In this document: positions 34,865 through 51,362 of the stretch, one piece after another
Layout of the letters: every line of letters begins with the position of its first letter
Position numbering within the stretch: the first letter of the stretch is position 1
NCBI RefSeq assembly: GCF_002849715.1
Contig: NZ_CP018865.1
Coordinates: 1 to 64,000, forward strand
DNA from: Arthrobacter crystallopoietes
GTDB taxonomy: Bacteria; Actinomycetota; Actinomycetes; Actinomycetales; Micrococcaceae
DNA length: 64,000 nt
Reading direction: 5' to 3'
Program-made: the position numbers and the translations under genes
Notes under the pieces: generated by a model
What the model was told of the DNA's origin: nothing
Seen by the model: only the letters and a program-made list of their open reading frames with translations
Databases searched by the model: none

Positions 34865-34919
34865 CGCCGTCATCAGGAAGCACTGAAGTGACACCCGATG
34901 ATGCCTGCTGCCCTAAACT

Positions 34920-34939
34920 CCGATAACGGCGCATACGTC
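34920..34939 (+). repeat. dif-like element, copy 1
   Basis: CCGATAACGGCGCATACGTC. It can be read as a left arm ending GATAA, a 6-base centre CGGCGC and a right arm ATACGTCA, the layout of Xer recombination sites. The first of five copies in the same orientation, it lies 63 bases before the remnant gene that opens the maleate block. Confidence 0.6.
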
Positions 34940-35001
34940 ACCTGCGCATTCCCCCTTCCGGCGACTCCCTGGCCACCCGCTGGGGGTGATTCGATGGAAC
35001 C

Positions 35002-35300
35002 ATGACTACAGCTGCCCCTGAAGGTGTTATCCAGAATTTGGCGAGGCTTAACACTGCCTTGAATCAGGTGATCCCGGCCCGAACAGTCGCGACGTAGAAC
35101 ATCAGAGCATTCGGCGACTTGACAGAGATATGGCAGGCCGGGCCGAAGGACTCACCGAAAAGAGACTGGCATTCGGTAGTGTGCATCGCGGAAGTCATCC
35201 GCCGCTTTGACATGATTGCCGTGCAGGAAGTCCGGCGCAGCGTCAAAGCGCTAAGGTTCCTGCTGCAGCGCCTTGGCCAGAACTGGCGTGCAGGTGACTC
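35002..35300 (+). pseudogene. Endonuclease/exonuclease/phosphatase-family protein, nonsense-interrupted fragment
   Basis: ATG 35002 starts a frame (TTAAPEGVIQNLARLNTALN) that reaches AT-stop-NIRAFG at TAG 35095-35097. The family motif there is ATWNIRAFG, so TGG has become TAG. The frame continues as LTEIWQAGPKDSPKRDWHSV, EVIRRFDMIAVQEVRRSVKA and LRFLLQRLGQNW, including the conserved QEV metal-binding Glu. Homology then ends. Truncated and non-functional. Confidence 0.65.
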
Positions 35301-35608
35301 CCGATTTGTCGTTCATCAGATTGCTCATTGCTCCCTCGGACGAATTGCAGACTTCTACCCCGTCTTGAACACTGAAAGGGCATAAATCAGGGCAGGGCCC
35401 AACCCGCGTCCACACTCAAGATCCGCTCGCGCCGGAGGAGGTGGCCGCCGCAATCGGGTTCTCGCGGCGGAGCAAGACCCGTCGTTCCTCAACCCGGTCC
35501 CGCCGAGCCGTTCCGTTGGCGACCGGGTGGCCCCCGATCCAGTCCCGTCCGTTCCATCCGAAAATCCGTCTATGAAATATTTCAGCGGCACAGCAGGTTG
35601 CTGACCTC
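35301..35608. other. Intergenic region, no supported gene
   Basis: About 300 bases between the nuclease remnant and the aldo/keto reductase gene. Minus-strand frames here lack start signals and motifs. Confidence 0.4.
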
Positions 35609-36469
35609 ATGAGTACATCGCAAAACGTGAAGACCGTGTCCCCCGAACTGGCCCTTAACGACGGCCTCACTATCCCGCAGCTCGGCTACGGCGTGTGGCA
35701 GGTGGAAGACGACGTCGCGGAAGTTGTTGTCGGCAAGGCTTTCGAGGCCGGCTACCGCCACATCGATACCGCGAAGATCTACGGCAACGAAGCAGGCGTG
35801 GGACGGGCCATCGCCGCGTCCGGCCTGGACCGAGAGGACCTGTTCATCACCACCAAGCTGTGGAACTCCGACCAAGGCTACGAGAGCACCCTGAAGGCCT
35901 TCGAAGACTCGATGGAGCGGCTCGGTCTGGAAACCCTCGACCTCTACCTCATCCACTGGCTCCAGCCGAAGCAGGGCAAGTACGTCGATACCTGGAAGGC
36001 CCTGGTCGAGCTGCAGAAGCAGGGCCGGGTCAAGAGTATCGGCGTATCCAACTTCACTGTCGGGGCGCTGCAGGAAATCATCGAGGCGACCGGCGTGGTT
36101 CCGGCCATCAACCAGGTGGAGACCCATCCGTACTTCAACCAAGCCGAACTACGGGCCTTCGAAGCCGACAAGGGCATCCTGCATGAGTCCTGGTCGCCGC
36201 TGGGCCAGGGCCAAGGCCTGCTCGAGGACCCCGTACTGAAGGACATCGCCACGAAGCGCGACGTCACCCCGGCCCAGGTGGTTATCGCCTGGCACCTCGC
36301 CGTGGGCAACGTGGTCATCCCGAAGTCCGTGACCGAATCGCGGATCGTGGAGAACTGGGAGGCCCTCAATGTGGCCTTGGAGCCCGAGGACATCGAGGCG
36401 ATCGACGCGCTGGATCAGGGTACAGCAGGACGCATTGGCGCCGACCCCGCGACGGCGGACTTCGCCTAG
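35609..36469 (+). CDS. Aldo/keto reductase
   Basis: 286 residues, standard AKR5-type (2,5-diketogluconate reductase-like) sequence. Catalytic tetrad D53, Y58, K83 and H116, seen in YRHIDTAKIYGNEAGVG, FITTKLWNSDQGYEST and LDLYLIHWLQP. NADPH-binding residues are in the C-terminal IPKSVTESRIVENWEA. It reduces aldehydes or ketones with NADPH in the cytoplasm; substrate unknown. The ATG at 35609 has only a weak ribosome binding site. A strong terminator follows, so it is monocistronic. Confidence 0.9.
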   Translation: MSTSQNVKTVSPELALNDGLTIPQLGYGVWQVEDDVAEVVVGKAFEAGYRHIDTAKIYGNEAGVGRAIAASGLDREDLFITTKLWNSDQGYESTLKAFEDSMERLGLETLDLYLIHWLQPKQGKYVDTWKALVELQKQGRVKSIGVSNFTVGALQEIIEATGVVPAINQVETHPYFNQAELRAFEADKGILHESWSPLGQGQGLLEDPVLKDIATKRDVTPAQVVIAWHLAVGNVVIPKSVTESRIVENWEALNVALEPEDIEAIDALDQGTAGRIGADPATADFA

Positions 36470-36501
36470 TCCAGAGCTTCGCCTAACCCGGCGGACTGCC
36501 A

Positions 36502-36533
36502 ACGAAGGGGCCGCACCCCTGCGGCCCCTTCGT
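36502..36533 (+). terminator. Terminator hairpin after the aldo/keto reductase
   Basis: ACGAAGGGGCCGCA pairs perfectly with its complement across a CCCC loop (14-bp stem), 32 bases after the stop. No long T tract, as is common in high-G+C hosts. Confidence 0.7.
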
Positions 36534-36821
36534 CGTGTCCACGGCTACCGTGTGGAAACGCCGCCGGCGATCCAGCCGGCGGGATCCGCGCCCTCCTGCG
36601 CCACGTACGGCGGATCGATGACCAACAGCGGCTCCTGCTGGTATGCGGTCTCGCGGGCGGAGTCGCCGCCACGATAGGGCGGCGGGGGAACACCAACTAC
36701 GACCCTGCCCTGCCCTTGGCACTCCGTATCCCCAGGCTGTTCGCCCGGCCCATCAACGCCGAAGCGTAGTGGGATCCATGGTCCGGGCGTTGGGGATGGG
36801 CCGGATGGTTATGGTGGAACA
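36534..36821. other. Intergenic region with possible coding remnant
   Basis: A plus frame ending at 36769 (LRHVRRIDDQQRLLLVCGLA then GGVAATIGRRG) has a membrane-like end, but no start or family could be established. The last 40 bases form the upstream region of the flavin reductase gene. Confidence 0.3.
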
Positions 36822-37448
36822 ATGCGAACGGACTTTAGCCCTGAAAAACTGTCTTCCCGCGATTTCTACCGTCTGCTGACGGCGGTGGTTGTCCCCCGGC
36901 CCATCGCTTGGGTCTCCAGCACCTCGGCCGAGGGCGTGGACAACCTGGCGCCGCATTCGTTCTTCACGGTGGCGTCGGTGAATCCACCGATCGTCCAGTT
37001 CACCTCCGTGGGCGAGAAGGACTCGTTGCGCAACATTCGGGCGACGGGCGAGTTCGTGGTCAACCTGGCATCGGTCAGCTTGATGGCCGAAGTGAATGCG
37101 ACGGGCACGAATTTCGATCCGGAGGTCAGCGAGTTCGATGCGGCCGGTGTGATGCGGGAGCCGAGCCTAACGGTGAAACCGCCGCGGGTGCTCCAGTCCC
37201 CGGTGGCTCTGGAGTGCAAGCTCCACCAGCTGCTGCCGATGGGTGACTGCACGCTGGTTTTCGGCAAGGTCATGCATGCGACGGTGACGTCGGAGGTGCT
37301 GGACGGGACGCACCCGCGGATCGACCAGTTGGAGCCGCTGTCTAGGCTCGGGCTGGACGAGTGGGGTGCGCTGGGCGAAGTCCGGGAGATCAAGCGGATC
37401 CGCAAGTCCGAGTGGCCCGGGCACTTCCGTCCCGGTTCTGCCGAATAG
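36822..37448 (+). CDS. Flavin reductase-like FMN-binding split-barrel protein
   Basis: 208 residues of the DIM6/NTAB-type flavin reductase family: RDFYRLLTAVVVPRPIAWVS at the N-terminus, APHSFFTVASVNPPIVQFTS with the typical PP turn, KDSLRNIRATGEFVVNLAS and CKLHQLLPMGDCTLVFGKV. Members bind FMN and reduce flavin for monooxygenases, or act on other acceptors. No partner oxygenase lies within this block. Convergent with the carrier gene, with a terminator hairpin between them. Confidence 0.85.
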   Translation: MRTDFSPEKLSSRDFYRLLTAVVVPRPIAWVSSTSAEGVDNLAPHSFFTVASVNPPIVQFTSVGEKDSLRNIRATGEFVVNLASVSLMAEVNATGTNFDPEVSEFDAAGVMREPSLTVKPPRVLQSPVALECKLHQLLPMGDCTLVFGKVMHATVTSEVLDGTHPRIDQLEPLSRLGLDEWGALGEVREIKRIRKSEWPGHFRPGSAE

Positions 37449-37456
37449 GGCGCGTC

Positions 37457-37492
37457 CGACAACGGTGCGCCGGGATCGGCCCACCGTTGTCG
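37457..37492. terminator. Bidirectional terminator-like hairpin
   Basis: CGACAACGGTG (37457-37467) and its complement at 37482-37492, with a 14-base loop, lie between convergent stops at 37448 and 37515. Confidence 0.6.
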
Positions 37493-37514
37493 TACTTGCT
37501 CTCGTCGCTTTGGC

Positions 37515-38879
37515 TTAGCCGATACCGAGTTGGACGAAGACGAACCAGACGAGCAGCGGCACGACGAAGATCATCGCGATCGCCCAGAGCAGCAGTGCGC
37601 GGAAGAACATCCGCTCGTCCTTGGGCTCGGCGCTGGCCATCAGCAGGGCGCCGCTGGTGGACATCGGGCTCACATCGACCACAGAGGAGCTGATCGCGAT
37701 CGCTGTGACCACGCCGATCGGGGTCAACAGCGGGTCCATGGCGATCGGCGTGACGATCGGGCCGACCACGCCGAGGGTTCCCGTGGTGGAGGCGAAGGCC
37801 GAAACGATGCCGACGACGTAGCTGGTGACGAGCGCGGCGAGGGAACTGTTGCCCAGTCCGGCAATACCGGCCTGCAGCTCCGCCAAGGCACCCATTTCCT
37901 CGAGCATGCCGACGTAGGTGACGATACCGGTGACGAGGATGATGGCCGACCACGGCATGCTCTCGACGGCCGGCTTCTGCACGCCGGAGTTACAGGCGAT
38001 CAGGGCGAGGGCGACGACCAGCGAGGCGACGCCGACATCGAGGGCGAAGACGGTAGTCAGGACCAGCAGGGCGCCGATGCCGACCAGGGTGAGGACACGG
38101 ATCGGGGTGGCAGCGACCTTCTGGGGCCGCACCTTGCCGCCGTCAGTCGCGACCGCCGCCGGTGCGGGGACAGTCAGGACCGCTGTGCCGCGGCCGGCTG
38201 GCGTGGTCCCGCCAACACCCGTCCCGTAGGCAGGGCCGGCGGAGACGCCGCCCGACGCCTCGCTGCGGGCGGCCCGCTTCTTCATGATGCTTTCGATCAG
38301 CAGGTAGGCGAAGACCGCCAGCACTACATTGAAGAGGAAGCAGTACACGTAGAGCTTGAGCGAGTCCCCGGAGGCCCCGGCCTCATCGAGCATGACATTG
38401 GCCAGCACGCCGAACGGGTTGACCGGCGAGAAAGCGCCCGCGTTGGCGCCTTGGACGATGACCAGGCCCATGGACAGCGTGCTGATGCCGAACCGGCTCC
38501 CCAGAGCCAGGCCCACCGGGGCGACAATGGCGATGGCGGCCGGGGTGAACGCGCCGGCTGAAGCCAGGGCGGCGGTGAGCAGGAACATCAGCACCGGAAC
38601 CAGGAACCGGCGGTTGCCTGCGAGCAGTTCGGCCCAGTAGGCCAGCAAGTCAATCGTGCCGTTGATTCGCACGATCGCGAAGAGCAGGGTCGCCCCGACC
38701 AGGATGAAGAACAGCCCGGAGGGGAACTGCGCGATCACGTCCTTGATTGACAGCCCGGCCACGATGGTGCCGACGCCGAAGGCAGCCACGATGGCGATGA
38801 GGCCAGCATTCAACCGGGTGAAGGAGCCGATGGCGAACGCCGCGATAAGTACGGCGAAGGCGATGAGCGACAGTGACAT
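37515..38879 (-). CDS. MatC-like dicarboxylate carrier (SLC13/ion-transporter superfamily)
   Basis: 454 residues with about 11-12 membrane helices. The N-terminal MatC_N-type region has LNAGLIAIVAAFGVGTIVAG, FPSGLFFILVGATLLFAI, and LVIVQGANAGAFSPVNPFGV. The second half has IILVTGIVTYVGMLEEMGAL and VGPIVTPIAMDPLLTPIGVV. A Gly/Pro/Ala-rich loop separates the halves. MatC proteins import malonate and similar dicarboxylates. The maleate isomerase gene lies 11 bases upstream on the same strand, so the likely cargo is maleate or a related C4 diacid (inference). Confidence 0.82.
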   Translation of the reverse strand: MSLSLIAFAVLIAAFAIGSFTRLNAGLIAIVAAFGVGTIVAGLSIKDVIAQFPSGLFFILVGATLLFAIVRINGTIDLLAYWAELLAGNRRFLVPVLMFLLTAALASAGAFTPAAIAIVAPVGLALGSRFGISTLSMGLVIVQGANAGAFSPVNPFGVLANVMLDEAGASGDSLKLYVYCFLFNVVLAVFAYLLIESIMKKRAARSEASGGVSAGPAYGTGVGGTTPAGRGTAVLTVPAPAAVATDGGKVRPQKVAATPIRVLTLVGIGALLVLTTVFALDVGVASLVVALALIACNSGVQKPAVESMPWSAIILVTGIVTYVGMLEEMGALAELQAGIAGLGNSSLAALVTSYVVGIVSAFASTTGTLGVVGPIVTPIAMDPLLTPIGVVTAIAISSSVVDVSPMSTSGALLMASAEPKDERMFFRALLLWAIAMIFVVPLLVWFVFVQLGIG

Positions 38880-38890
38880 GGCGGTATCCT

Positions 38891-39709
38891 TTAGACTCGC
38901 GCAGGCAGCTTGAGGGGGACGCCGGACAGCAGGCTGCCGGCGCCGCTGATCGAAGGCTCGTGGCCCAGTGCCTTCAGGATCTCATAGGCGGTTGCCGTGG
39001 CAGCGGTAATGACCGGCAGACCCAGCTCGTCCTCGACGGCCTGGACGGCAGGAAGCGACGGCATCTGCACACAGGCCGAGAGGACGATGGCGTCCGCGCC
39101 TTCGCGCTTGAGGTTGCGGGCGATCTCCGGCAGGTTCTGCGGGTCCAGGCAACCGACAGCGAGGTTATCGGCGACTTCGAGGCTGACGGCGTCGAGGACC
39201 TCAATACCCGCTCCCTCGATGTACTCACGGACCATCTGGGTCAGCGGCTTCATGTACGGGGTGACCATGGCAACCTTCCGGGCGCCCATCTCCTGCAGCG
39301 TCCGGACCAAAGCACCGGCGCTACTGGTAACGGCGGCGGGGTGGCCGTTGTCCTCGGCAGCCTTGGCGATTGTTTCCTCGGAACCGACATGCGCGTTGGG
39401 CCCCTGGGCCATCACGGCCACCAGACAGGCATAGGCGATTGCATCGACGTCGGCATCGGACACTGCCGCGGCACAGCCGGCGGCCTTGCCCACCATGGCC
39501 AGCAGCTCTTCCTTGTTGACGTTCTTCATGCCCGCACGGGCCGAATGGAAGGTGTACTTCTGCCCGGTGGCCTCGGACTGGCGGCGGAACAGCTCCGGCA
39601 GTTCGGTCTCCATTGTGGTGTTCGAGCTGGGAACGATCAGGCCGATGCGGGACAGGCCGGCCTGCTTCGGCGCGGGAACGGTTTCACAGGTGATGTCAGG
39701 GGTACTCAC
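38891..39709 (-). CDS. maiA: Maleate cis-trans isomerase (Asp/Glu racemase superfamily)
   Basis: GTG 39709 was chosen because GTGGAG lies just upstream. The 272-residue product carries two catalytic Cys: C95 in AYACLVAVMAQGP and C213 in VLSACVQMPSLPAV. The N-terminal SRIGLIVPSSNTTMETELPE is typical of maleate isomerases and arylmalonate decarboxylases. Two Cys favour isomerase over decarboxylase. It would turn maleate into fumarate for the TCA cycle. First gene of a two-gene operon with the carrier; divergent from an IclR regulator across an 11-G tract. Confidence 0.82.
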   Translation of the reverse strand: MSTPDITCETVPAPKQAGLSRIGLIVPSSNTTMETELPELFRRQSEATGQKYTFHSARAGMKNVNKEELLAMVGKAAGCAAAVSDADVDAIAYACLVAVMAQGPNAHVGSEETIAKAAEDNGHPAAVTSSAGALVRTLQEMGARKVAMVTPYMKPLTQMVREYIEGAGIEVLDAVSLEVADNLAVGCLDPQNLPEIARNLKREGADAIVLSACVQMPSLPAVQAVEDELGLPVITAATATAYEILKALGHEPSISGAGSLLSGVPLKLPARV

Positions 39710-39812
39710 GAATTTCTCCACAGTGCTAGGACTCTCAAAAACCCACTTCGCGGGATCGCAACCCATCATGCGGGTTACTGCCGTAGAATGTCAACTGGAT
39801 CACATTCAGCGA

Positions 39813-39823
39813 GGGGGGGGGGG
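39813..39823 (+). repeat. Run of 11 G between divergent maiA and iclR
   Basis: A homopolymer of eleven G lies 44 bases before the IclR start and about 105 bases before the maleate isomerase start. Slippage in such a tract could alter promoter spacing, or it may simply be a sequencing-prone site. Confidence 0.6.
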
Positions 39824-39866
39824 CAGGCCGTTCCCACCGGCGGTCTGCAAACGAAGGAGCGATAAG

Positions 39867-40694
39867 ATGGCGAGGCAGCAGACAGCGGACACCAGAGGCA
39901 AGGACAAGGGATTGGCAACGGAGAGTAACGCCGGATCATCTCCGATCCTGGTCCTCCACAAAGTGACGCAGATCCTCGACTGCTTCTCTATCGAATCCCC
40001 CGAACCAACTCTGCAGGAGATCATCCGGAAGACCGGGCTGCCTTCAAGTACCTGCCAGCGCCTGGTGCAGAGTATGCTCCACGAGGGATTCCTGGACCGC
40101 GACGGCGACCGGTACCGGATCGGAATCGGGCTGGTACGCTGGGCCACCCCCGGAACGCTAGGCCTCGACGTCGTACGTTTGGTCAAGCCCATCCTGCAGA
40201 AGCTGCGCGACGAGACCGGCGAAAGCGCCTCCTTCTACATCCGCGACGGCGTCTACCGCACCATCGTGGCGGTCGCCGAAACCCGCCACGTTGTCATGCG
40301 GCCGTTCATGGTCGGGCAGGTCATGCCCATCCACGCCGGCGCCGCCGGGAAAATCTTCCTCGCCTACGACCCGGACGCGCGAAACGCCATCGCCGGCTCC
40401 GTGCTCGCCAAGTTCACCCCCGCTACGCCGGACAGTCTCGAGAAACTGGACCTTCAGGTCGCGCAGACCCGGAAGCTGGGTTTCGCCGCAGCCTTCGGCG
40501 AGCGTCACAGCGACGTCGGTTCCATCAGCGCGCCCGTCTTCGACCATGCCGGCCAGCTCGCCGGCGCGCTCGGACTTGGCTTCCCCACCCAGCGGATAGG
40601 CCCTGCCGACGCCGAACGGCTTGGACCAGTTGTAGCGCAGGCAGCGCGCGCCGCAAGTGAGTCGCTCGGCTTCATCACACGACAGGCGCAGTAG
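39867..40694 (+). CDS. IclR-family regulator of the maleate genes
   Basis: ATG 39867 follows AAGGAG by eight bases, giving 275 residues. HTH region: PTLQEIIRKTGLPSSTCQRL, VQSMLHEGFLDRDGDRYRIG. Effector domain: RPFMVGQVMPIHAGAAGKIF and KLGFAAAFGERHSDVGSISA. Divergent placement next to maleate isomerase and carrier genes implies local control, with maleate or another C4 acid as a plausible effector (inference). The long frame upstream of 39867 is a shadow. Confidence 0.85.
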   Translation: MARQQTADTRGKDKGLATESNAGSSPILVLHKVTQILDCFSIESPEPTLQEIIRKTGLPSSTCQRLVQSMLHEGFLDRDGDRYRIGIGLVRWATPGTLGLDVVRLVKPILQKLRDETGESASFYIRDGVYRTIVAVAETRHVVMRPFMVGQVMPIHAGAAGKIFLAYDPDARNAIAGSVLAKFTPATPDSLEKLDLQVAQTRKLGFAAAFGERHSDVGSISAPVFDHAGQLAGALGLGFPTQRIGPADAERLGPVVAQAARAASESLGFITRQAQ

Positions 40695-40822
40695 GCCAAC
40701 GACGGGCACCATCACCGCTGACGCGTCGGCCTCCGCAGCACCGGATCGGCGCGGGGCACGCCTCCGGCCGGAACGCTGTCGGGTGTGGTGTTAGGCTCCG
40801 GGTCCGCGATATTTCGTGAACG

Positions 40823-40842
40823 CCGATAACGGCGCATAAGTC
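40823..40842 (+). repeat. dif-like element, copy 2
   Basis: CCGATAACGGCGCATAAGTC, 128 bases after the IclR stop and before the Lsr2/thiC block. Shares the 14-base core and 6-base centre with the other four copies. Confidence 0.6.
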
Positions 40843-41098
40843 GGCCTAGGAAGTGGCGCCAAGGCAGCTGCGTGTCATGACTCCGGCAATTGCTCCCCCG
40901 CCCGAAACCAGTTTCGAAGAGAACCCGGTACGGTCGCCATCGGGCCTTGGAGGAAGTCATCGCTGACGTCGTCTGTCGGCTTCGCCCCGCACTGTTCGGG
41001 ATAGGTAACCGGTGTACTGATGTCCGCGGGCTCTCCGTCTGCTTGGATTCATAGGCCGGTGGAAATCCTGGATGACCTGCAAGAGCAGTCATCCAGGC
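40843..41098. other. Intergenic region
   Basis: About 250 bases between the second dif-like element and the 3' end of lsr2. ATGACCTGCAAGAGCAGTCAT near 41070-41090 is a short imperfect dyad after the lsr2 stop that might aid termination. No gene is supported. Confidence 0.35.
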
Positions 41099-41437
41099 TC
41101 AGGCCACGGCCCTTTGGTAGGCGTCGACGATTTCGGCTGATATCCGGCCCCGCCCGGGAACCTGAAAGCCCTTACCTTTCGCCCCTTCACGGATCTTCCG
41201 GGCCTCATCCCGCCCGTTTGCTGCCGGCGCGGAACGGGAAGTGCGCTGTCTGGAAGCAGCCGCAGTGGCCTTGCGCCCGGCGCTGATGTACTGGTGCAAC
41301 ACGTTGCGTACGGCGGCGGCCTCATCGGTTGACAGGTCGATTTCGTAGTTAATGCCGTTAAGTCCGAATTGCACGGTTTCGTCGGCCGGCCCGCCATCCA
41401 AGTCCGATACCAGAACGATCTTGATCTGCTGCGCCAT
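41099..41437 (-). CDS. lsr2: Lsr2-family nucleoid-associated protein
   Basis: ATG 41437 follows TAGGAG; the longer frame upstream is not Lsr2-like. 112 residues. The N-terminal dimerisation domain has MAQQIKIVLVSDLDGGPADE, FGLNGINYEIDLSTDEAAAV. The C-terminal DNA-binding domain has GFQVPGRGRISAEIVDAYQ with the RGR AT-hook-like motif. Lsr2 bridges A+T-rich DNA and silences foreign genes in actinobacteria. A copy carried on an accessory region could restrain the low-G+C catabolic island nearby (inference). Confidence 0.92.
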   Translation of the reverse strand: MAQQIKIVLVSDLDGGPADETVQFGLNGINYEIDLSTDEAAAVRNVLHQYISAGRKATAAASRQRTSRSAPAANGRDEARKIREGAKGKGFQVPGRGRISAEIVDAYQRAVA

Positions 41438-41738
41438 GCCGGATGGACTCCTAAATAGTGCGAATAGTTGTCCCCGCTTAATCATTACGCAGATCCTCAG
41501 CGCCCATGAAAGCATGCAGCGCCGCTGTACGGACGTCTGGGGGGAATCATCACAACCCCGGCATGCCGCCCGGCAGCCGTTCAAGAGCCGGTTCAGGCGC
41601 GCACTGTTGTCCCGACGTGACCGTCCGGAATCAGGCAGCCGCCCGGACAGAAGCAGCGGTCTCGGTGCGGTCTCCCACGGCCTAGGCACGGGCCTTGTTT
41701 CTGTCGGTAGGCCTGCCGCTGCTATCCTCGTGTGTATC
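41438..41738. other. Divergent promoter region of lsr2 and thiC
   Basis: About 300 bases upstream of both genes. It presumably holds both promoters; no clear sigma-70 hexamer pair was identified. Confidence 0.4.
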
Positions 41739-41827
41739 CACACGGGAGCCCTGTTGCAGGGGCTGAGATCAGGCTGATGCAGCCTGCGACCGTCGAACCT
41801 GTCCGGGTAATGCCGGCGAAGGAAGTG
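41739..41827 (+). promoter_or_regulatory. TPP riboswitch (THI element)
   Basis: Conserved blocks in order: CACGGGAGCC, GGGGCTGAGATCAGGCTGA, GACCGTCGAACCTGTCCGGG and TAATGCCGGCGAAGGAAGTG. These form the TPP-binding core (CUGAGA and the GAACCUG...GGUAAUGCC...GCGAAGGAA helices). It ends about 10 bases before thiC, so ligand binding probably hides the thiC ribosome binding site. Confidence 0.93.
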
Positions 41828-41828
41828 A

Positions 41829-43574
<1,746 letters not shown>

Positions 43575-43817: not shown

Positions 43818-43848
43818 CACCGCGGCCGCTTCAGGTGCGGCCGCGGTG
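43818..43848 (-). terminator. Terminator hairpin after the corC operon
   Basis: CACCGCGGCCGC (43818-43829) and GCGGCCGCGGTG (43837-43848) form a perfect 12-bp stem with a 7-base loop, 42 bases beyond the stop of the minus-strand gene ending at 43891. Confidence 0.65.
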
Positions 43849-43890
43849 CTGGCTCCGGTACTTCGGCCATGGCAGCCTGCTGCTGTGGCT

Positions 43891-44934
43891 TTAGGTGCGG
43901 CTGGTGCTTCGGCTATCGTCGCGGATCTGGCCAACGAGTTCTTCGAGCATGTCTTCGAGGGTCACGATGCCGTACGGGTGTCCTGTTTCGTCGATGGCCA
44001 GTGCCAGGTGCGCCCCTTCACGCTGCATGCGGTGCAGCGAGGACCGCAGCGCGTCGTTCAGGTTCACCCGCGGCAGGTCACGGACCAGTCTGGCCGGCAG
44101 CGGCTTGTTCCTGTCCGCGGCGTCCAGTCCGAGCAGGTCTTTGACGTGCACGTAGCCGTCCAAGGCGCCGGAGGGTGCCTGGACAGGGAACCGGGAGAAA
44201 CCGTTGGCAGCAACCTGTTCAATCTGCTCCGGGGTGCACCCTGCGGGCAGGGTGGTGACCTTGCTCAGCGGGATCACGATGCTCTCGACCGAGCGTTCTT
44301 CGAAGGTCAGCGCGCCGAGCAGGAGCCGTTCGTCCTGCTTGTCGAGGAGCCCGCCTTCACGTGATTCCTCGACCAGCCCGGCGACCTCGTCACGGGTGAA
44401 CGTGCTGGCGACTTCGTTCTTGGGCTCGACGTTGAACAGCCGCAGGATGCCGTTGCCGATGGCGTTCATGCACCACAGCAACGGCTGCAGCATCCGCACC
44501 ACGACGACCAGGACCGGTCCCAGGATGAAAGCCATCCGCTCGGGCCCGGCCAGCGCAATGTTTTTCGGCACCATCTCGCCGAGCACCACGTGCAGGAACG
44601 TCACCACGCTCAAGGCGATGGCGTAGGCGATCGGGTCGATCAGCCCTGCCGGGACCCCCCAGGTAGTGAAGGGACCCTCCAGGGCGTGGACGACCATCGG
44701 TTTGGTGACATAGCCCAGGGCCAGGGAACAGACGGTGATGCCCAACTGCGCGCCGGCCATCATGAGCGAAACGTTCTCTATGGCCCACAAGGTCATTTTG
44801 GCGGCCCGGCCGCCTTGTTCGGCCCGGGGCTCGACAATGCTGCGCCGTGCGGCGATCAGGGAGAACTCGGCTCCGACGAAGAAGAAGTTCGCCACGAGCA
44901 GGACGATGGTCAGGATGATTCCGGTAGCGTCCAT
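43891..44934 (-). CDS. CNNM/CorC-family membrane protein with CBS pair
   Basis: 347 residues. The N-terminal CNNM transmembrane domain (about 1-190) has IILTIVLLVANFFFVGAEFS, LGITVCSLALGYVTKPMV and VVLGEMVPKNIALAGPERM. A CBS pair follows (about 210-335): IVIPLSKVTTLPAGCTPEQ and HPYGIVTLEDMLEELVGQIR. It lacks the extra C-terminal CorC_HlyC domain found in its partner. Members are linked to Mg2+/Co2+ or other divalent-cation export. The start abuts the upstream stop (TAAATG), so it is coupled to the 448-residue paralogue. Confidence 0.88.
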   Translation of the reverse strand: MDATGIILTIVLLVANFFFVGAEFSLIAARRSIVEPRAEQGGRAAKMTLWAIENVSLMMAGAQLGITVCSLALGYVTKPMVVHALEGPFTTWGVPAGLIDPIAYAIALSVVTFLHVVLGEMVPKNIALAGPERMAFILGPVLVVVVRMLQPLLWCMNAIGNGILRLFNVEPKNEVASTFTRDEVAGLVEESREGGLLDKQDERLLLGALTFEERSVESIVIPLSKVTTLPAGCTPEQIEQVAANGFSRFPVQAPSGALDGYVHVKDLLGLDAADRNKPLPARLVRDLPRVNLNDALRSSLHRMQREGAHLALAIDETGHPYGIVTLEDMLEELVGQIRDDSRSTSRT

Positions 44935-46281
44935 TTAGCGCTCCTCTCCCTCGATGGCTGTGGGTTCGGTGGTGGCGAGGATCTTCGCGATCCGGGCCCC
45001 GTCCATCTCCTCCACGCACAGCCCGATCCTGGCCGGAGGGTGGCCGTGCGAGCCTTCGGTCACCAGCTCGACGGTGTCTCCGGTCTCGGCGATCCGGCCC
45101 AGATGAAGCGTGAACAGGCCGGCGAGCGTGTCGTACTCGGTGCCCTCGGGAATGGTGTGGCCCAGGATTCCGGTGGCCTCATCCGGGCGCAGGGCGCCGT
45201 CGAGCCGCCACACCCCGAAGGGCAGCCGCTCGCTCGTGTCGTCGTCGGGGTCGTGTTCGTCCGTGACTTCGCCGACAAGTTCCTCAACCAAGTCCTCCAG
45301 CGTGATCAGCCCGGCGACGTCACCGGTTTCGTCGATCAGGACCGCCATCTGCAAGCCGCCGGCCCGCAGCGTGTCCATCAGGTCATCAAGTTCCACGGTG
45401 TCCGGGATGAGCGTTGGCCCGTCCATGATTTCGCCGACCGCGAGGTCGCCGCGATAGCCGAAAGGGACGGCAAGACCGCGACGGATGTGCACGATCCCGC
45501 GCACATGGTGGGAACCGGGCTCCATCACCGGGAAGCGGGAGTGGCCGGTGGCCGCTGCGATGTCCAGCATCTCCTGGACGCTCTGATCCGGGGCGACGGC
45601 CACGATCCTCGTCCGCGGTGTCATCGCGTCGTGGCCGCGGCGGGCACCGAACGCAAATGACCGGCGGACCAGTTCGGCTGTCTCCTCGGGCAGTACTCCC
45701 TGGCGGGCAGAGTGCCGCACAAGGACGGTCAGTTCCTCCGCGGAGCGGGCCGAGGCAAGTTCCTCCTGCGGCTCGATGCCTATCGCCCGGACCAGCTTAT
45801 TGGCCGTTCCGTTGAAGAACACCAGCAGCGGCTTGGTCGCAGCGCTGAATCCACGCTGAAAGCCGGACACGGCGCGCGCGGTGGCCAGCGGCTTCGCGAT
45901 CGCCAGATTCTTCGGCACGAGCTCGCCAAAGACCATGGTCAGCACGGTCGCCAAAACCAACGCGATAATGACGGACACGGACCGGGCAGCACCCTCGGCA
46001 AGACCGGCATCCATCAAAGGCCCCAGCACCAGGGCTGCGATCGCAGGCTCAGCCAGGAAGCCGATACCCAGGTTCGTCAACGTGATACCCAACTGGGCAC
46101 CCGAGAGCTGGGTGGACAGCGTGTTCATCGCCTTCAAAACGCCGACGGACTTCTTGTCGCCGGCGTCGGCGGCATCCCTGACCGCGTTGCGGTTCACCGT
46201 AATCAGGGAAAACTCGGCCGCGACGAACAAACCGCAGCCGGCGATCAGCAGCAGACCACCCAGGATCGAGACTAATTCCAT
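44935..46281 (-). CDS. CNNM/CorC-family protein with CBS pair and CorC_HlyC domain
   Basis: 448 residues. CNNM domain (GGLLLIAGCGLFVAAEFSLI, GAQLGITLTNLGIGFLAEPA, MVFGELVPKNLAIAKPLATA), CBS pair (AMTPRTRIVAVAPDQSVQEM, DETGDVAGLITLEDLVEELV) and a C-terminal CorC_HlyC domain (VWRLDGALRPDEATGILGHT, PEGTEYDTLAGLFTLHLGRI). A full-length divalent-cation transport protein forming an operon with the shorter paralogue. Its GCAGGGGG ribosome binding site can be sequestered in a leader hairpin (see 46291-46350). TerC, likely manganese-related, is upstream on the same strand. Confidence 0.9.
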   Translation of the reverse strand: MELVSILGGLLLIAGCGLFVAAEFSLITVNRNAVRDAADAGDKKSVGVLKAMNTLSTQLSGAQLGITLTNLGIGFLAEPAIAALVLGPLMDAGLAEGAARSVSVIIALVLATVLTMVFGELVPKNLAIAKPLATARAVSGFQRGFSAATKPLLVFFNGTANKLVRAIGIEPQEELASARSAEELTVLVRHSARQGVLPEETAELVRRSFAFGARRGHDAMTPRTRIVAVAPDQSVQEMLDIAAATGHSRFPVMEPGSHHVRGIVHIRRGLAVPFGYRGDLAVGEIMDGPTLIPDTVELDDLMDTLRAGGLQMAVLIDETGDVAGLITLEDLVEELVGEVTDEHDPDDDTSERLPFGVWRLDGALRPDEATGILGHTIPEGTEYDTLAGLFTLHLGRIAETGDTVELVTEGSHGHPPARIGLCVEEMDGARIAKILATTEPTAIEGEER

Positions 46282-46290
46282 TTAGAAACA

Positions 46291-46350
46291 CCCCCTGCCG
46301 CGGTTCTCGGAGCACATTCGAGCATCAGCAGGGGGCATGGACTATGCCCC
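46291..46350 (-). promoter_or_regulatory. Leader with mutually exclusive hairpins over the corC ribosome binding site
   Basis: On the minus-strand RNA, GGGGCAT (from 46350) can pair with ATGCCCC (46338-46332) in a 7-bp, 5-base-loop hairpin. Alternatively CCCCCTGC (46335-46328) can pair perfectly with GCAGGGGG (46298-46291), which contains the Shine-Dalgarno of the gene starting at 46281. The two helices share the same C run (46332-46335), so only one can form. This is the layout of a translational switch. The ligand is unknown; it does not match riboswitch classes I recognise. Confidence 0.55.
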
Positions 46351-46591
46351 GGACTGTCACCGGGAGTGGACATCAGATCCTCTCAAAGATCAAAAGACAG
46401 AAAACGTCCGCGGCCTGATTGCCGTGGACAACATAATTTTGCCATTGCGTGTCCCACCGACGCAAAGAGCAGGCCGAGGCGGAAAGCACTGTCCGAGGTC
46501 AGGTACCCCTGTTCCGCTTTCAACTGCCGGCCCAAGGCAAAACGCCAAGCAACACTCCACATGACCAGTTCCCGGGGCAGCGGTCGCGGAA
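46351..46591. other. Intergenic region
   Basis: Part of the 600-base gap between terC and the corC pair. No gene is supported. It probably carries the corC promoter on the minus strand. Confidence 0.4.
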
Positions 46592-46643
46592 AAGGTGCAG
46601 CTCCCCCAGTTTTCGCCAAAACCATTGAGGGAGCTGCGCCTTA
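46592..46643 (-). repeat. Inverted repeat of about 14-16 bp
   Basis: AAGGTGCAGCTCCC (46592 on) and GGGAGCTGCGCCTT (to about 46643) flank a 24-base loop that includes TTTTCGCCAAAA. It could act as a terminator after terC, or be a short mobile-element scar. Confidence 0.45.
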
Positions 46644-46850
46644 GGACAGCCCGCGAACATTCAGCCGCCCTCCCCGACTGTCAGCTTCGGCCACAACGGC
46701 CTCGACTCCTGCACAGCTCCGGAACCTGGTGTTCGTCCGATGGGCGACAGTTGGGGTCCCTGACCGCCGCTCCGGCCGAGGATCCGAACGTGCCCTCGAT
46801 GGGGTGGGAGTCCGAGGACGTAACCGGCCCGGACACGGTGTACTTCCCGG

Positions 46851-46870
46851 CGGGAGCCTTAGGGCTCCCC
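46851..46870 (-). terminator. Hairpin just after terC
   Basis: On the minus strand GGGAGCCC-TAA-GGCTCCC lies about 25 bases beyond the terC stop. Short but G+C-rich. Confidence 0.45.
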
Positions 46871-46894
46871 TTTTCACAGCTGCCTATGGGATAA

Positions 46895-47977
46895 CTACCT
46901 GGACGTGTCTGCAGTGGACATCGTCTTCTCATCGACCCCGGGATTCTCATCCCGGTCGTGCGGGTGGGTGGTGATCACGGGTTCGCCGTGGACCAGTCCG
47001 CGGTCGTCCTTCTTCTCGTCGCTGCGGGTCTTGAGCAGGCTCGCAACAGTTGCGACGACGATGGTTGCACCGATGAAGAGCAGCGAGAACCAGATGGGAA
47101 TCTCGGGTACCCAGAGGAGCGGTTCCCCGCCGTTGATGAAGGGGAGCTCGTTGACGTGCAGGGCGTGGAAGACGAGTTTCACGCCGATGAAGCCGAGGAT
47201 GACGGCCAGTCCCTGGGCGAGGTAGACCAGACGTTCGAGCAGTCCTCCGATGAGGAAGAACAACTGGCGCAGACCCATCAGCGCGAACGCGTTGGCGGTG
47301 AAGACAATGTACGCCTCGTTGGTCAGGCCGTAGATCGCGGGGATCGAGTCGACGGCGAAGATGAGGTCCACAAAGCCGATCGCGATGATTGTGAGCAGCA
47401 TCGGGGTGACGAAGCGCTTCCCGCCCTGCCGCACGGTGAGCTTGTCCTGGTGATACTCATTGGTGACGGGCAGGACCCGGCGCACGAGTGTCATGAACTT
47501 ACCGTTAGCCGGATTGGCCTCGTGGCTGCTGAACGCCTGCCGGTAGGCCAGGACAAGCAGCAGGGCACCGAAGATGTAGAAAACCCAGGAGAAGTTCTCG
47601 ATCAGGGTCGCTCCGATGGCGATGAACCCGCCGCGCAGGATCAGGGCGATGATGATCCCGATCATCAGCACCTTCTGCTGGTACTTCTTCGGTACCGCGA
47701 ATCCGGCCATCACGATGAGGAAGACGAACAGGTTGTCGATCGACAGTGCCTTCTCGGTGAGGTAACCGGCGAAATACTCGCCGCCGAACGTCCATCCCGA
47801 CACCGTACCGATCCCCACCCCGAACAGCAGTGCCAGTCCGATGTAGAACGCGGACCAGCGCGCCGACTCCGCGATGGACGGCTCGTGGGGTTTTCGCACG
47901 TGGGCGAAAAACTCGTAGATGAAGAACAGGATCGTCACGGCGATCGTGATGAACCAGACCATAGGTGTGACCTGCAT
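46895..47977 (-). CDS. TerC-family membrane protein, copy 1 (probable Mn2+ exporter)
   Basis: ATG 47977 follows TTGGAGCACC; the in-frame extension upstream is riboswitch sequence. 360 residues, about nine helices. TerC hallmarks include EKALSIDNLFVFLIVMAGFA and FVDLIFAVDSIPAIYGLTNE (both acidic LS-DN and AVDS motifs present) and GLRQLFFLIGGLLERLVYLA. TerC proteins under yybP-ykoY control export manganese. The C-terminal cytoplasmic tail (about 50 residues) is charged and variable. A nearly identical gene ends the window at 63979. Confidence 0.9.
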   Translation of the reverse strand: MQVTPMVWFITIAVTILFFIYEFFAHVRKPHEPSIAESARWSAFYIGLALLFGVGIGTVSGWTFGGEYFAGYLTEKALSIDNLFVFLIVMAGFAVPKKYQQKVLMIGIIIALILRGGFIAIGATLIENFSWVFYIFGALLLVLAYRQAFSSHEANPANGKFMTLVRRVLPVTNEYHQDKLTVRQGGKRFVTPMLLTIIAIGFVDLIFAVDSIPAIYGLTNEAYIVFTANAFALMGLRQLFFLIGGLLERLVYLAQGLAVILGFIGVKLVFHALHVNELPFINGGEPLLWVPEIPIWFSLLFIGATIVVATVASLLKTRSDEKKDDRGLVHGEPVITTHPHDRDENPGVDEKTMSTADTSR

Positions 47978-48011
47978 AGAGGTGCTCCAAAGGGTAGGCG
48001 TTGAACAGATA

Positions 48012-48115
48012 CGCCAAGGTCTCCTCCGCCCGGTCGACACCGGAACCAATCGACCCGAGACGCTTCAATGCATCCGTATTGACGGGCCGATCACAGACGG
48101 GAGTACTCCCCTTGA
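48012..48115 (-). promoter_or_regulatory. yybP-ykoY manganese riboswitch, copy 1
   Basis: The minus-strand RNA starts CAAGGGGAGUACUCCC and ends GGCGGAGGAGACCUUG. The terminal CAAGG/CCUUG pair forms P1, and GGGGAGUA plus GUCAAUACG are class landmarks. Located 35 bases before terC. The same element precedes the second terC copy. Confidence 0.82.
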
Positions 48116-48269
48116 TAGGAAAATCATAGCCGAACCCACACCGTCGTCCTAACCGACGGATCGTGCCGTTGTCAGCACCCGGGACTGCTCCGGCCGTCGA
48201 TGACCCGGGCTTAGGCCCGAAAACGCCAAACCCACCAAATTTGCCATGCAGAGTGGTTATGCTGGCCGG

Positions 48270-49173
48270 ATGGAACTGGCATTCGAGCTGACACCCGATC
48301 TGGCCATCGCGTTTGTGACCCTGTTCATCCTGGAGATCGTCCTGGGCGTGGACAACATCATCTTCATCTCGATCCTGGCGAGCAAACTTCCGGTGGAGCA
48401 GCAGGCCAAGGCCCGCAACCTCGGGTTGACGCTCGGGTATGCTGATGCGCGTCGTCCTGTTGTTCGCAGCCTCCTGGATCATTTCCCTCACCGAGGATCT
48501 CTTCGAACTCTTCGGAATGGGGTTCTCCGGACGAGATCTGATCCTGCTGTTCGGCGGCTTGTTCCTGGTCTATAAAGCGGTACGGGAAATCCACGAGAAG
48601 CTCGAGGGAACCGAATCCCATGGCCTGGGTGGCGCGAAGGCCGCCACGTTCGGCGCCGTGCTGGGGCAGATCATCATCCTGGACATGGTCTTCTCCTTCG
48701 ACTCGGTGATCACCGCCGTCGGGATGGTGGACAACCTGCTGATCATCATCGTCGCGGTGCTGTCCTCCTTCACCATCATGCTCTTCTCCGCGAAGCACAT
48801 CTTCGCCTTCGTCAACCGGCACCCCACCGTCAAGATGCTCGCCCTGGCCTTCCTGGTACTGATCGGGGTGTTCCTGATCGCCGACGGGTTCGAGGTCAAG
48901 ATCGACAAGGCTCTCATCTACGGCCCAATGGCGTTCGCCATCGCCGTGGAAGCACTGAACCTGGCGGCCAAGCGGCGGCAGGAAAAACGCCTCGGCAAGC
49001 CCATCGACCCGGTCCATCTGCGCCACGCCTACACGAAAGCCGATGACCGCGATGCCGTCGCCGCCGCAACAGCCCGTGGGCCGGAAGCCGGCGACGTCCA
49101 CCTGTCCCGCAAACCGGTCACCGGCCAAATCACCGACGACGACGGACACCAGGAACCTGCCGGGCTCGGCTGA
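48270..49173 (+). pseudogene. TerC-family (YkoY-like) membrane protein with a single +1 frameshift
   Basis: ATG 48270 begins [20 protein letters not shown] and includes [20 protein letters not shown], a TerC motif. Homology then moves to the next frame at about 48436-48440, where LTLGY should read [16 protein letters not shown]. The second frame continues to a natural end (TFGAVLGQIIILDMVFSFDS, ALAFLVLIGVFLIADGFEV). One extra base explains the break; the rest is intact, so a sequencing error or recent mutation is possible. Divergent from terC copy 1; a different subfamily. Confidence 0.75.
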
Positions 49174-49277
49174 CCCCGATGAGGCCGCCGACCGGGCCGG
49201 ACGGCGCTTCTGCTCACAGCCACAAGCCATCCGATAACCCAACCGCAGGCCCAACGGCAGGTGCGGGATTTCAAACG

Positions 49278-49297
49278 CCGATAACGGCGCATACGTC
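49278..49297 (+). repeat. dif-like element, copy 4
   Basis: CCGATAACGGCGCATACGTC, identical over 20 bases to copy 1. Located 104 bases after the frameshifted terC gene and 219 bases before the XRE gene. Confidence 0.62.
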
Positions 49298-49516
49298 AGC
49301 GCGCGGCGAAAGAAAAAGGCGATCCCGACTGATCTTCCGCCCCACGCTTTAGGGACCAACAGGTCGGGCAAGCGCATCGTTCTATAGATCTGTCCCCCTT
49401 GAGCAGTTAAAGGCCACTGCTTACTGGTTGGCCGAGACGAAGTGCAAGCGCTATGATGAATCAACCACTCTCCCTGTGATTCAGAGACGCAGTGTTAATT
49501 CAAGGAGACAAGTCTG
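49298..49516. other. Promoter region of the XRE/ImmA/PIN cassette
   Basis: About 220 bases whose composition becomes A+T-richer toward the gene. CAAGGAG lies 10 bases before ATG 49517. The -10-like TATGAT near 49452 is a candidate promoter element. Confidence 0.4.
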
Positions 49517-49864
49517 ATGGCAATGACTACAGGCGACCGCATCAAGCAATACCGCATAAAGAACGACATGTCGCAGCGCGACTTGGAGGCCAGAATTGAC
49601 CTCTCCCAATCCACCATTACGCGTATCGAAGCTGGGGAGCGGCCGGTAAAGCCCTACGAGCTTTCGGCTATCGCCATGGCTTTAGGCTGCCCAGAATCGA
49701 GTCTTATGGAAAGCCATCCGCTACGAGATCGTGTGCGGTTCGCCGCCCGAACGGCGAACGGGAAGAACCCCAATCCTGAGCCGGTCAGGGACCATCTTCT
49801 TTACCTTCTGGAAATGGACAACTACCTCGGCCGGGCGCTCAAACAGATTCAGACGGCACAGTAA
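49517..49864 (+). CDS. XRE-family HTH protein
   Basis: 115 residues. Classic HTH at about 5-60: TTGDRIKQYRIKNDMSQRDL, IDLSQSTITRIEAGERPVKP, YELSAIAMALGC. The C-terminal 45 residues form a helical tail (DHLLYLLEMDNYLGRALKQI). It heads a three-gene cassette and probably represses it. The ImmA/IrrE protease next door may cleave it, as in ICEBs1-type systems (inference). Visibly lower G+C than flanking blocks. Confidence 0.85.
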   Translation: MAMTTGDRIKQYRIKNDMSQRDLEARIDLSQSTITRIEAGERPVKPYELSAIAMALGCPESSLMESHPLRDRVRFAARTANGKNPNPEPVRDHLLYLLEMDNYLGRALKQIQTAQ

Positions 49865-49878
49865 GACTCAGGTGGGAG

Positions 49879-50673
49879 ATGGCTTTGACTAATGAGGAAC
49901 AAGCTGCCCTGGCCGCCGCTGATTTTCGCCGAGACTACAACCTCGGCAATGCACCGATCAACGACCTCAGTGATTTGATCGAGGGCAGGCTAGGCATTGA
50001 CGTAGCCATCGTAGAGATGGACGACGGCCTTGATGGCATGGTTCTTCAGGATCCCGAGACTAATCAGCGGATCATTTCAGTGGCATGTACGACTTCCATG
50101 GAACGCCAACGTGCCACCTTGGCTCACGAGGTGGGTCATCTCGAATTGAAAGATTTCGCCGAAGATGGCGTAATCCAGTGCGGCGTTCGAAGTGCGGAAG
50201 AAATCCGGGCCGATTCGTTCGCCCGCCACCTGCTCGTGCCCCAACAGGGCGTCACGGAGTTTTTGGAAGGGCTTGGAAGAGCCCGCCAACAACTCTCCGA
50301 AGGCGATCTGGCCTACTTGGTCAGGTACTTTGAAGCCTCTCCGATGATGGTTCTCATTCAGCTCGAGAATGCAGGGTGGCTGGCTCAAGGTCAAAAAGAG
50401 GCATGGAAATCTCTCTCGGCTGGGAAATTAGCTGCTCGCTACGGATGGTCGGATGAGCACCGGGCCTCGCAGAAAAAAGCCATGACACCCCAAGCTCCAA
50501 TGCGAATCGTGGCTGAGGCTATGAAGGCTTATGAGAACAACGTAATTGGCTTGGAAGCAGTCGCTAGAATTCGCGGAATTAGGCCCGCCGACTTAAAGGA
50601 CGAACTCGACGAGGTGGGCATCACACCAAAGCCCGTCGAACTGCCACCGACCAGATTTGGCCGCCGCCAGTGA
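49879..50673 (+). CDS. ImmA/IrrE-family metallopeptidase
   Basis: 264 residues. Zinc motif H83-E84-x2-H87 in LAHEVGHLEL, with a third ligand likely at E107/E108 in EEIRADSFARHLLVP. The N-terminal region LIEGRLGIDVAIVEMDDGLD, GMVLQDPETNQRIISVAC is typical of the family. The C-terminal half is helical, with an HTH-like IVAEAMKAYENNVIGLEAVA. Such proteases inactivate a neighbouring XRE repressor under stress. The start is 15 bases after the XRE stop; the stop overlaps the PIN gene start (GTGA). Confidence 0.85.
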   Translation: MALTNEEQAALAAADFRRDYNLGNAPINDLSDLIEGRLGIDVAIVEMDDGLDGMVLQDPETNQRIISVACTTSMERQRATLAHEVGHLELKDFAEDGVIQCGVRSAEEIRADSFARHLLVPQQGVTEFLEGLGRARQQLSEGDLAYLVRYFEASPMMVLIQLENAGWLAQGQKEAWKSLSAGKLAARYGWSDEHRASQKKAMTPQAPMRIVAEAMKAYENNVIGLEAVARIRGIRPADLKDELDEVGITPKPVELPPTRFGRRQ

Positions 50674-51296
50674 ACGTCGAACAAACCAATGAATCTGATC
50701 ATAGCGAGCTAGTAATCCTTGACGCTGGACCCGTCCTAAACTTCATGGGACGGAAAGACACTACAGATCTATACCTGAAGACGCTCAAGAATATGACCGA
50801 CAGCATCCTTATTCCCGACGCGGTCGTCGACGAGGTGGAGCACAAGTCCGATAAGGACGACCGGTTCAAGACCTGCCACAAGAAACTCCTGACAGTCATA
50901 GGGGGCAAGCACATCGTCGCGCTCTCTACACCTCCGAGAAACAAGGATGATGAGTACGAATTTCATTGGACATGGGTCATGAACAACTGCCCCCAAGAAA
51001 TGCTGTCATCCAGTAAGAATCGCGGCGAAATGGTCTTGGTTGCCCACGCTCGTGTTTTTCGCGCTCAAGGACGTGATGTCGTGGCAATGATCGATGACCA
51101 AGATGCAGCAGCCCTCGCAAGGAGAGCTGGCATACCCACTTTCAACACGGTGCAGCTATTTCAGGAGAGCGTCGTCTGGGGCGTCATCCCGGATAAGGCG
51201 GAGCTGAAGCGGCTCTATGGATTGGTCCAAGAAAAGGACGACGGCTTGCTGCCGTTCAAGCTGACTCCACTCAAGGAAGAGTTCTCCAACACCTAA
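50670..51296 (+). CDS. PIN-like nuclease domain protein
   Basis: 208 residues starting at GTG 50670, overlapping the ImmA stop. PIN-like features: LVILDAGPVLNFMGRKD with D18, IPDAVVDEVEH with D54/E55, KNRGEMVLVAHARVFRAQGR with the GE acidic residue E120, and VAMIDDQDAAALARRAGIPT with D142/D143/D145. These are the acidic metal-binding positions of PIN ribonucleases. No VapB-type antitoxin is present; the XRE and ImmA proteins may play the controlling role. Longer than VapC (about 130 residues), closer to PIN proteins in abortive-infection-like cassettes (inference). Confidence 0.7.
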   Translation: MNVEQTNESDHSELVILDAGPVLNFMGRKDTTDLYLKTLKNMTDSILIPDAVVDEVEHKSDKDDRFKTCHKKLLTVIGGKHIVALSTPPRNKDDEYEFHWTWVMNNCPQEMLSSSKNRGEMVLVAHARVFRAQGRDVVAMIDDQDAAALARRAGIPTFNTVQLFQESVVWGVIPDKAELKRLYGLVQEKDDGLLPFKLTPLKEEFSNT

Positions 51297-51342
51297 GACG
51301 GAAACCGGCACAGCAGCTGGCACTTGAGGCAGGGCGGAACCG

Positions 51343-51362
51343 CCGATAACGGCGCATATGAA
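51343..51362 (+). repeat. dif-like element, copy 5
   Basis: CCGATAACGGCGCATATGAA, 46 bases after the PIN-like gene. The right arm diverges after ATATG. With copy 4 it exactly brackets the XRE/ImmA/PIN cassette. Confidence 0.55.

Follow-up and report, generated by a model that had tools for sequence, protein, structure and literature searches.

When five copies of one short sequence separate blocks of unrelated genes on a single replicon, a basic question has to be answered: are these copies the edges along which the blocks are exchanged between genomes? The question is raised by the window considered here, a stretch of 64,000 nucleotides that makes up the first 64 kb of contig C3 (244,759 bases) of Arthrobacter crystallopoietes, in which CCGATAACGGCGCA occurs exactly at 34920, 40823, 43698, 49278 and 51343, every time on the plus strand. 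We hold it to be quite probable that these are Xer-type, dif-like sites of 11-6-11 layout which form interchangeable edges of adaptive modules, on plasmids as well as on chromosomes, in a genus of the Micrococcaceae close to Arthrobacter (called Crystallibacter by some). Exchange of modules at the site is near certain, and movement of single modules as circles, on which one supporting pair bears, is plausible. That dif-like sites bracket mobile modules in an Arthrobacter-like bacterium had been proposed by an earlier sequence-only reading of the window; the module boundaries in other replicons, together with that present/absent pair, support the proposal. The sites (arm limits set by analogy with the 11-6-11 dif layout) and the stretches that the window shares with other replicons are as follows.

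34916..34943, plus strand: site 1, with the left (XerC-like) arm AACTCCGATAA, the centre CGGCGC and the right arm ATACGTCACCT.
40819..40846, plus strand: site 2, left edge of the block common to plasmid pTC1, homology to which begins at 40818.
43694..43721, plus strand: site 3, separating the thiC and TerC/CNNM modules; both flanks and the site are also found in pTC1.
49274..49301, plus strand: site 4, right edge of the pTC1 block; its left flank occurs in three replicons and its right flank differs in each.
51339..51366, plus strand: site 5, at the left end of a 10.5-kb stretch whose left neighbour is another one in genome G163.
40818..49293, plus strand: two-module block, matching Paenarthrobacter aurescens TC1 plasmid pTC1 (CP000475.1) at 96.0% over 8,488 aligned bp.
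51341..61784, plus strand: stretch common to G163 (locus L077), matching at 94.97% over 10,477 aligned bp.

The five sites do not owe their existence to chance. With up to two mismatches to CCGATAACGGCGCA allowed, the window contains 7 matches, against a mean of 0.72 and a largest count of 4 in 100 dinucleotide shuffles, and a weight matrix built from 99 sites, the window five among them, reaches a score of at least 8 at these five places only and nowhere in 10 random sequences matched to the window in first-order composition. The reversed control pattern has no copy in the whole genome, nor in the 930,052 bases of loci that yielded the 99 sites (a density which is not unbiased, because the loci were mostly fetched for holding the exact core). 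Chance was set aside on the strength of the shuffles and of the empty control, and the copies reported earlier on the plus strand are confirmed at all five positions. As had also been claimed, copies 2-5 follow the last stop codon of a block (40694, 43574, 49173 and 51296) at 128, 123, 104 and 46 bases, and a right arm close to ATACGTC can be read in four of the five, the arms of sites 1-5 being, in order, ATACGTC, ATAAGTC, ACATGTC, ATACGTC and ATATGAA.

Conservation around CCGATAA is limited to about 26 bp, approximately from position -5 to +20, as judged from profiles in which redundancy had been removed at the left flank (91 rows) or at the right flank (84 rows), and it reads AACG CCGATAA CGGCGC ATATG(T/A)C. 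Taken as 11-6-11, this consensus comprises the left arm AACGCCGATAA, the centre CGGCGC and a looser right arm, ATATGWC. In its left arm the site matches the host dif base for base, this dif being presumed to be CCGATAATCTACATTATGTC at C1:4073413 on the chromosome. The right arm, the most variable part of the site, agrees with TTATGTC in 5 or 6 of 7 places. A separate dif with a TTATGTC right arm is kept in each genome, in 8 of 10 as CCGATAATCTACATTATGTC. When the centre is left free, the pattern CCGATAANNNNNNATATGWC, one mismatch allowed, is matched 144 times in the ten genomes of the genus, as compared to once for the control; 93 of these matches have the centre CGGCGC or one change from it (73 exactly), 21 are dif-type with TTATGTC, 23 make up a second class with the centre CCGTGA or one change from it, and 7 are other. 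The sites of the second class are mostly single and scattered (for example, G038:C88:116017, G007:C13:49892 and G000:C1:1886095) and coincide with 5 alignment ends in both partners. Two centre-free matches from a different genus of the same family (G063:C1:1953119 and 2052964) have GCACCC as their common centre and possibly belong to a sister system.

Within the host genome there are 9 exact copies of CCGATAACGGCGCA (8 forward, 1 reverse), three on C1 and six on C3, and the chromosome has, besides its three exact copies, one copy with the centre CAGCGC. A weight-matrix scan of C3 at a score of at least 5 yields, in plus orientation throughout, six sites of the class and a single plasmid dif-type site (CCGATAATGGAGATTATGTC at 152004). 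The two ends of C3 overlap over 17,939 aligned bases with 0 mismatches and 15 gaps, so that the simplest reading of this contig is a circular plasmid of about 226.8 kb left untrimmed; the sixth site, at 226762, lies on this circle 70 bases before window position 1.

The case for exchange rests on what lies on either side of the sites in different replicons. The homology between the window block and pTC1, which carries five sites in the fetched 38 kb, ends inside both end sites, 2 and 4: on the left, the two sequences differ to within a few bases of CCGATAA, after which they match, and on the right, they agree through CCGATAACGGCGCATA and diverge beyond. The 10.5-kb stretch found to the right of site 5 in the window stands in G163 directly to the left of the thiC module, the site between the two being decayed by a 2-bp deletion. 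The thiC module has three different left neighbours in three replicons (the window, pTC1 and G163), and the right edge of the TerC module adjoins three different right flanks in the same three. Loss or gain of a module with one site left behind, a pattern proposed earlier as a check, was found once: two sites on G163 contig C43 (L079) enclose a module of 2,737 bp, with a gene for a sodium:solute symporter, that is absent in G122 (L106), where the flanks are joined at one remaining site (identity of 97.7% on the left over 300 bp, and of 100% on the right over the 100 bp that could be compared). Homologous loci do, then, differ by modules at the motif. On the chromosomes, G000 and G062 are alike to the right of one site (99.6% over 9,191 bp) and differ on the left; the left side of the G000 site is also present in G007, beside a decayed site, and the CAGCGC centre accompanies that left side.

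Over the 99 sites, 16 flank families have a switched opposite flank (4 left-shared, 12 right-shared), and two flank pairs are shared on both sides. Among 18 picked pairs, the right arm is identical in 11 of the 12 right-shared and different in 4 of the 6 left-shared ones. The right arm therefore travels with the right flank, which places the switch within CCGATAACGGCGC, from the first base of CCGATAA to the last base of the centre. In seven loci of Arthrobacter and Paenarthrobacter (L111, L116, L123, L139, L140, L145, L152), the same right-hand sequence adjoins the site while the left flanks vary; a gene for a 343-amino-acid DUF4192 protein lies to the right of the site in the loci tested (L116, L145).

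Alignment ends were counted after alignments below 75% or shorter than 150 bp, and ends at most 40 bp from the end of a locus, had been dropped. In the first locus set, 24 of 216 internal ends have a site no more than 10 bp away in both partners (expected, 0.006) and 33 in at least one partner (expected, 2.2). In a larger set, from which loci L156, L037 and L147 were dropped as repeats of other places, 26 of 404 internal ends coincide with a class-1 site in both partners (expected, 0.007) and 35 in at least one (expected, 3.5; mean 4.35 and maximum 14 in 500 runs with shifted sites). The motif is, accordingly, not placed at random. The uniform orientation remarked upon in the window holds for its five copies and for 62 of 63 pairs of neighbouring sites within the fetched loci, a few of these pairs being mutually homologous. 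The distance between neighbours ranges from 306 to 13,420 bp, the modules measure 0.3-13 kb and hold one to several genes, and the largest array, on G085 contig C3, numbers 13 sites in 39 kb.

A mechanism can be envisaged in which each module would begin with the right arm of a site and end with the left arm of the following one. With all sites facing the same way, head to tail, and having one centre, recombination could excise one or several modules as a circle, the circle could insert at any other site, and segments could also be swapped through a cointegrate of two replicons. The left arm would bind XerC and the right arm XerD, by analogy with dif; the former would recombine well, and the latter is off consensus, so that the exchange is probably rare or begun by XerC strand exchange. 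That XerC acts first is our guess from the poor right arm.

Which enzyme moves the modules? Proteins with the Phage_integrase domain (PF00589) number 7 in the window's genome and exactly 2 each in G085, G062 and G136, three genomes that carry exact site copies (at least 13 in G085, 9 in G136 and 5 in G062, the last on one closed contig). The best NCBIfam models for the two proteins of each are XerD, above the equivalog cut-off, and XerC. Thus, any tyrosine recombinase that acts in these three genomes should be XerCD, unless a visiting plasmid-borne recombinase was at work or the modules have been still since their arrival, and XerC and XerD are likely to be the enzyme in question.

Several observations weigh against the reading of the sites as Xer-type module edges. 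As many as 369 of the 404 internal alignment ends lie away from class-1 sites. The 16 flank families, with 23 counted switches, are not independent events: the pTC1 block and the 2.7-kb module are counted on both sides, a single place enters one family twice (L130, L156), and one family is based on matches of 80-90 bp; and only one clean present/absent pair was found. Across all loci, 44 of 139 sites fall within, and 95 between, open reading frames (ORFs) predicted by a crude gene caller, a ratio that leaves the placement of sites relative to conserved genes mixed; the 44 are provisionally ascribed to the crude gene models. The claim that the sites are always intergenic thus stands for the window, where none of the five overlaps a family-supported gene (some mechanical antisense ORFs do overlap them), and is weaker for the whole set. 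The right arm departs from TTATGTCAA, mostly by ATAT for TTAT beside the centre (position 13 is A in 80 of 84 rows), so that of the ATAA-spacer-TTAT motif the left half is present and the right half mostly replaced; according to the NAR 2025 paper, this motif controls binding and cutting. As to the enzyme, the role of XerC and XerD is something that we infer; the XerC proteins score 326-328 bits, just below the equivalog cut-off of 335; the window's genome has five further Phage_integrase proteins; and serine resolvases (PF00239), 1 to 9 each, were detected in all 5 genomes searched. Finally, the exact 16-base core occurs in 9 of 10 genomes of the genus and in 13 of 295 genomes of a family sample, but outside the genus only in 4 of 285, once each, with the control pattern in 2 of 295. 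As XerCD is expected to be common, this near-control level indicates that something else limits the spread.

Some of these points would suit a dedicated recombinase other than XerC/XerD, of the tyrosine or serine type, supplied in trans by a plasmid or phage, with the likeness of the left arm reflecting an Xer origin of the site. Such an enzyme would fit a right arm off the dif consensus next to an invariant centre, the serine resolvases just mentioned, and the three or more Phage_integrase proteins found in 7 of 10 genomes of the genus (G000, G163, G122, G105, G038, G151, G007). This explanation is, however, rather unlikely, considering the identity of the left arm with that of the host dif and the site-carrying G085, G136 and G062, which have XerC and XerD as their sole Phage_integrase proteins. 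A recombinase gene travelling with the arrays was rejected likewise, since none is seen beside the array in the window and these three genomes have XerC and XerD only.

A tyrosine recombinase gene was encountered close to dif-type and class-2 sites, in a 3.26-kb element that encodes proteins of 373 (the recombinase), 117 (HTH_26) and 492 amino acids. Three copies in the window's genome (L091:6762-10025 on C3; L092:6171-9434 and L093 on C1) are 99.7-99.8% alike, a fourth in G007 (L179) is 94% alike, and each ends a few bases to the left of a dif-type or class-2 site. In Acinetobacter, insertion sequences of the IS1202 family have been found 5 bp from XerC arms (PMC10132070), and the 3.26-kb element resembles these in targeting but not in its enzyme.

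Far less probable is the alternative, raised by the sequence-only reading itself, of a regulatory or terminator hairpin (GCCG-ATAA-CGGC) or another intergenic element, with homologous recombination or transposition nearby sparing the motif. Indeed, CGCCGATAACGGCG is an imperfect inverted repeat, and, by the crude caller, 92 sites have a gene on either side, the left one being oriented toward the site in 64 cases. Still, conservation reaches asymmetrically into the right arm, the shared sequence ends inside the element in many places and is unrelated beyond, the window sites are not regularly accompanied by a transposase, and a stretch of 26 bp does not suffice for ordinary homologous recombination; a plain hairpin was set aside as it leaves the switched flanks unexplained. 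A classical integron with attC-like sites, to which the head-to-tail array, the constant orientation, the mostly gene-trailing sites and the adaptive cargo might point, is the least credible of all, since no sequence is conserved past about 26 bp and thus no element of attC length exists, and G085, G062 and G136 have no integron integrase, or any other Phage_integrase protein, besides XerC and XerD.

How, then, do the Xer-type module edges relate to known systems? They share with chromosomal dif and with cer/psi-type plasmid dimer-resolution sites the layout and the left arm of the host dif, and differ in being present in many copies per replicon, at module edges, with a separate dif retained. 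With integrons they have in common head-to-tail arrays of mobile genes with an intervening site, but here no integron integrase is seen in G085, G062 and G136, and the sequence suggests no long folded attC. IMEX and other elements integrated at dif are likewise mobile DNA that uses Xer sites; here, by contrast, sites stand at every module edge and not around a single element at dif.

The closest comparison is with the dif (pdif/xrs) modules of Acinetobacter, which also have two arms around a 6-bp centre, carry adaptive genes, shuffle between replicons with crossovers inside the sites (PMC13141974, PMC11705084), and form arrays on chromosomes, too (PMC12907356). There, modules alternate in C and D orientation, spacers differ, and crossovers take place within sites of equal spacer, such that direct sites with equal spacer are excisable, in pairs of modules (PMC13141974, PMC11705084), although intramolecular deletion is inefficient (PMC11705084). 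The present sites differ in orientation (head to tail, 62 of 63), in spacers (one centre dominates, CGGCGC-type in 93 of 144) and in the XerD-side arm, which is TTATGTTAA and conserved in Acinetobacter and is the loose one here; the host phylum differs, too. Hence, sites of about 28 bp with an arm-6-bp-arm structure, at which modules are gained, lost and exchanged, were found here as they are there, but opposite orientation of neighbours, differing spacers and the right TTAT were not, and with three features of the Acinetobacter family failing, the sites are not classed as members. The likeness drawn by the sequence-only reading was therefore apt for dif-like sites and mobile modules, and loose for orientation and centre. 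One study reports no pdif sites in Psychrobacter and Moraxella and has no data for other groups (PMC6449649), and searches of an open-access library brought up no actinobacterial report of such modules. Judged on that library only, this is a real Xer-like module system, new in host and layout.

We offer only tentatively the wider possibility that it is a second, independently evolved Xer-powered cassette system, in Actinobacteria, in which one centre, a full XerC arm and a weakened XerD arm would let any module fit any plasmid or chromosomal site, with XerC initiating the exchange outside dimer resolution, and which would fill the role of an integron without an integrase gene. Movement of single genes by housekeeping Xer enzymes has already been elucidated in Acinetobacter; a further example, from a distant phylum and with a different layout, would, if true, make capture of dif sites a recurring route to mobile arrays, and would account for the swapping of catabolic, metal and salt-stress genes among plasmids and chromosomes of soil actinobacteria. 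The constant centre and the direct orientation allow excision of a single module, which is impossible with alternating Acinetobacter sites, and Xer-driven cassette movement as circles thereby becomes directly testable.

Outside the genome sets discussed above, an 18-base core was sought in named genomes and yielded 48 stretches, 40 of which come from Micrococcaceae, including Arthrobacter crystallopoietes, A. mangrovi, A. mobilis, Paenarthrobacter aurescens TC1, P. nitroguajacolicus, Zafaria, and Arthrobacter sp. VKM Ac-2550, SF27, MYb23, NtRootA1, cf158, S39 and ISL-95. The other 8, from unrelated bacteria of other phyla or classes, were taken as chance and left out; for an 18-mer in 257 billion bases of even base composition, 7.5 matches are estimated by chance. 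The centre-free pattern is present in 8 of 396 genomes of the order, the window's genome included. A 45-base query made of two consensus sites retrieved 19 PLSDB records, among which pTC1 alone is clearly site-bearing and a Shinella plasmid gives a weak match; searches of PLSDB with the flanks returned partial relatives only and no further empty site, and a viral-collection contig among the loci showed no junction.

The modules of the window carry the following cargo, with families assigned by Pfam.

34944..40818: module 1-2, maleate-type set.
35609-36469: aldo/keto reductase, module 1-2.
36822-37448: flavin reductase, module 1-2.
37515-38879, minus strand: MatC-type transporter, module 1-2.
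38891-39769, minus strand: Amdase/Asp-Glu racemase type enzyme, module 1-2.
End at 40694: IclR regulator, module 1-2.
40847..43693: module 2-3, with a small ORF without family (41089-41397, minus strand) and ThiC (41838-43574).
43722..49273: module 3-4, with CNNM/CBS proteins at 43891-44934 and 44935-46281 (both minus strand).
46895-48049, minus strand: TerC gene of module 3-4; a second one, on the plus strand, ends at 49173.
49302..51338: module 4-5, with HTH_3 (49517-49864), an ImmA-like peptidase (49879-50673) and a possible PIN protein (50670-51296).

The maleate-type set, ThiC, two TerC, two CNNM/CBS, HTH_3 and ImmA-like proteins have Pfam support. Of the other cargo named in the sequence-only reading, the ORF taken for lsr2 has no Pfam match at E <= 0.1, and the PIN assignment is only hinted at (PF17146, E 0.065, under the cut-off). 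The 13-site array of G085 (20 proteins scanned) carries Na+/H+ antiporters, two fatty acid desaturases, two glycogen-debranching-type enzymes, a copper amine oxidase, an aldehyde dehydrogenase, a multicopper oxidase, and an iron permease with imelysin. The XRE/ImmA-like/possible PIN set at 49517-51296 gives weak padloc matches only, to the RmrA/CapP and PDC-S70 defence models. At the far end of the window, 62721-64000 holds a further TerC-type copy, inverted and 89% identical relative to the TerC portion of the common block as it stands in pTC1.

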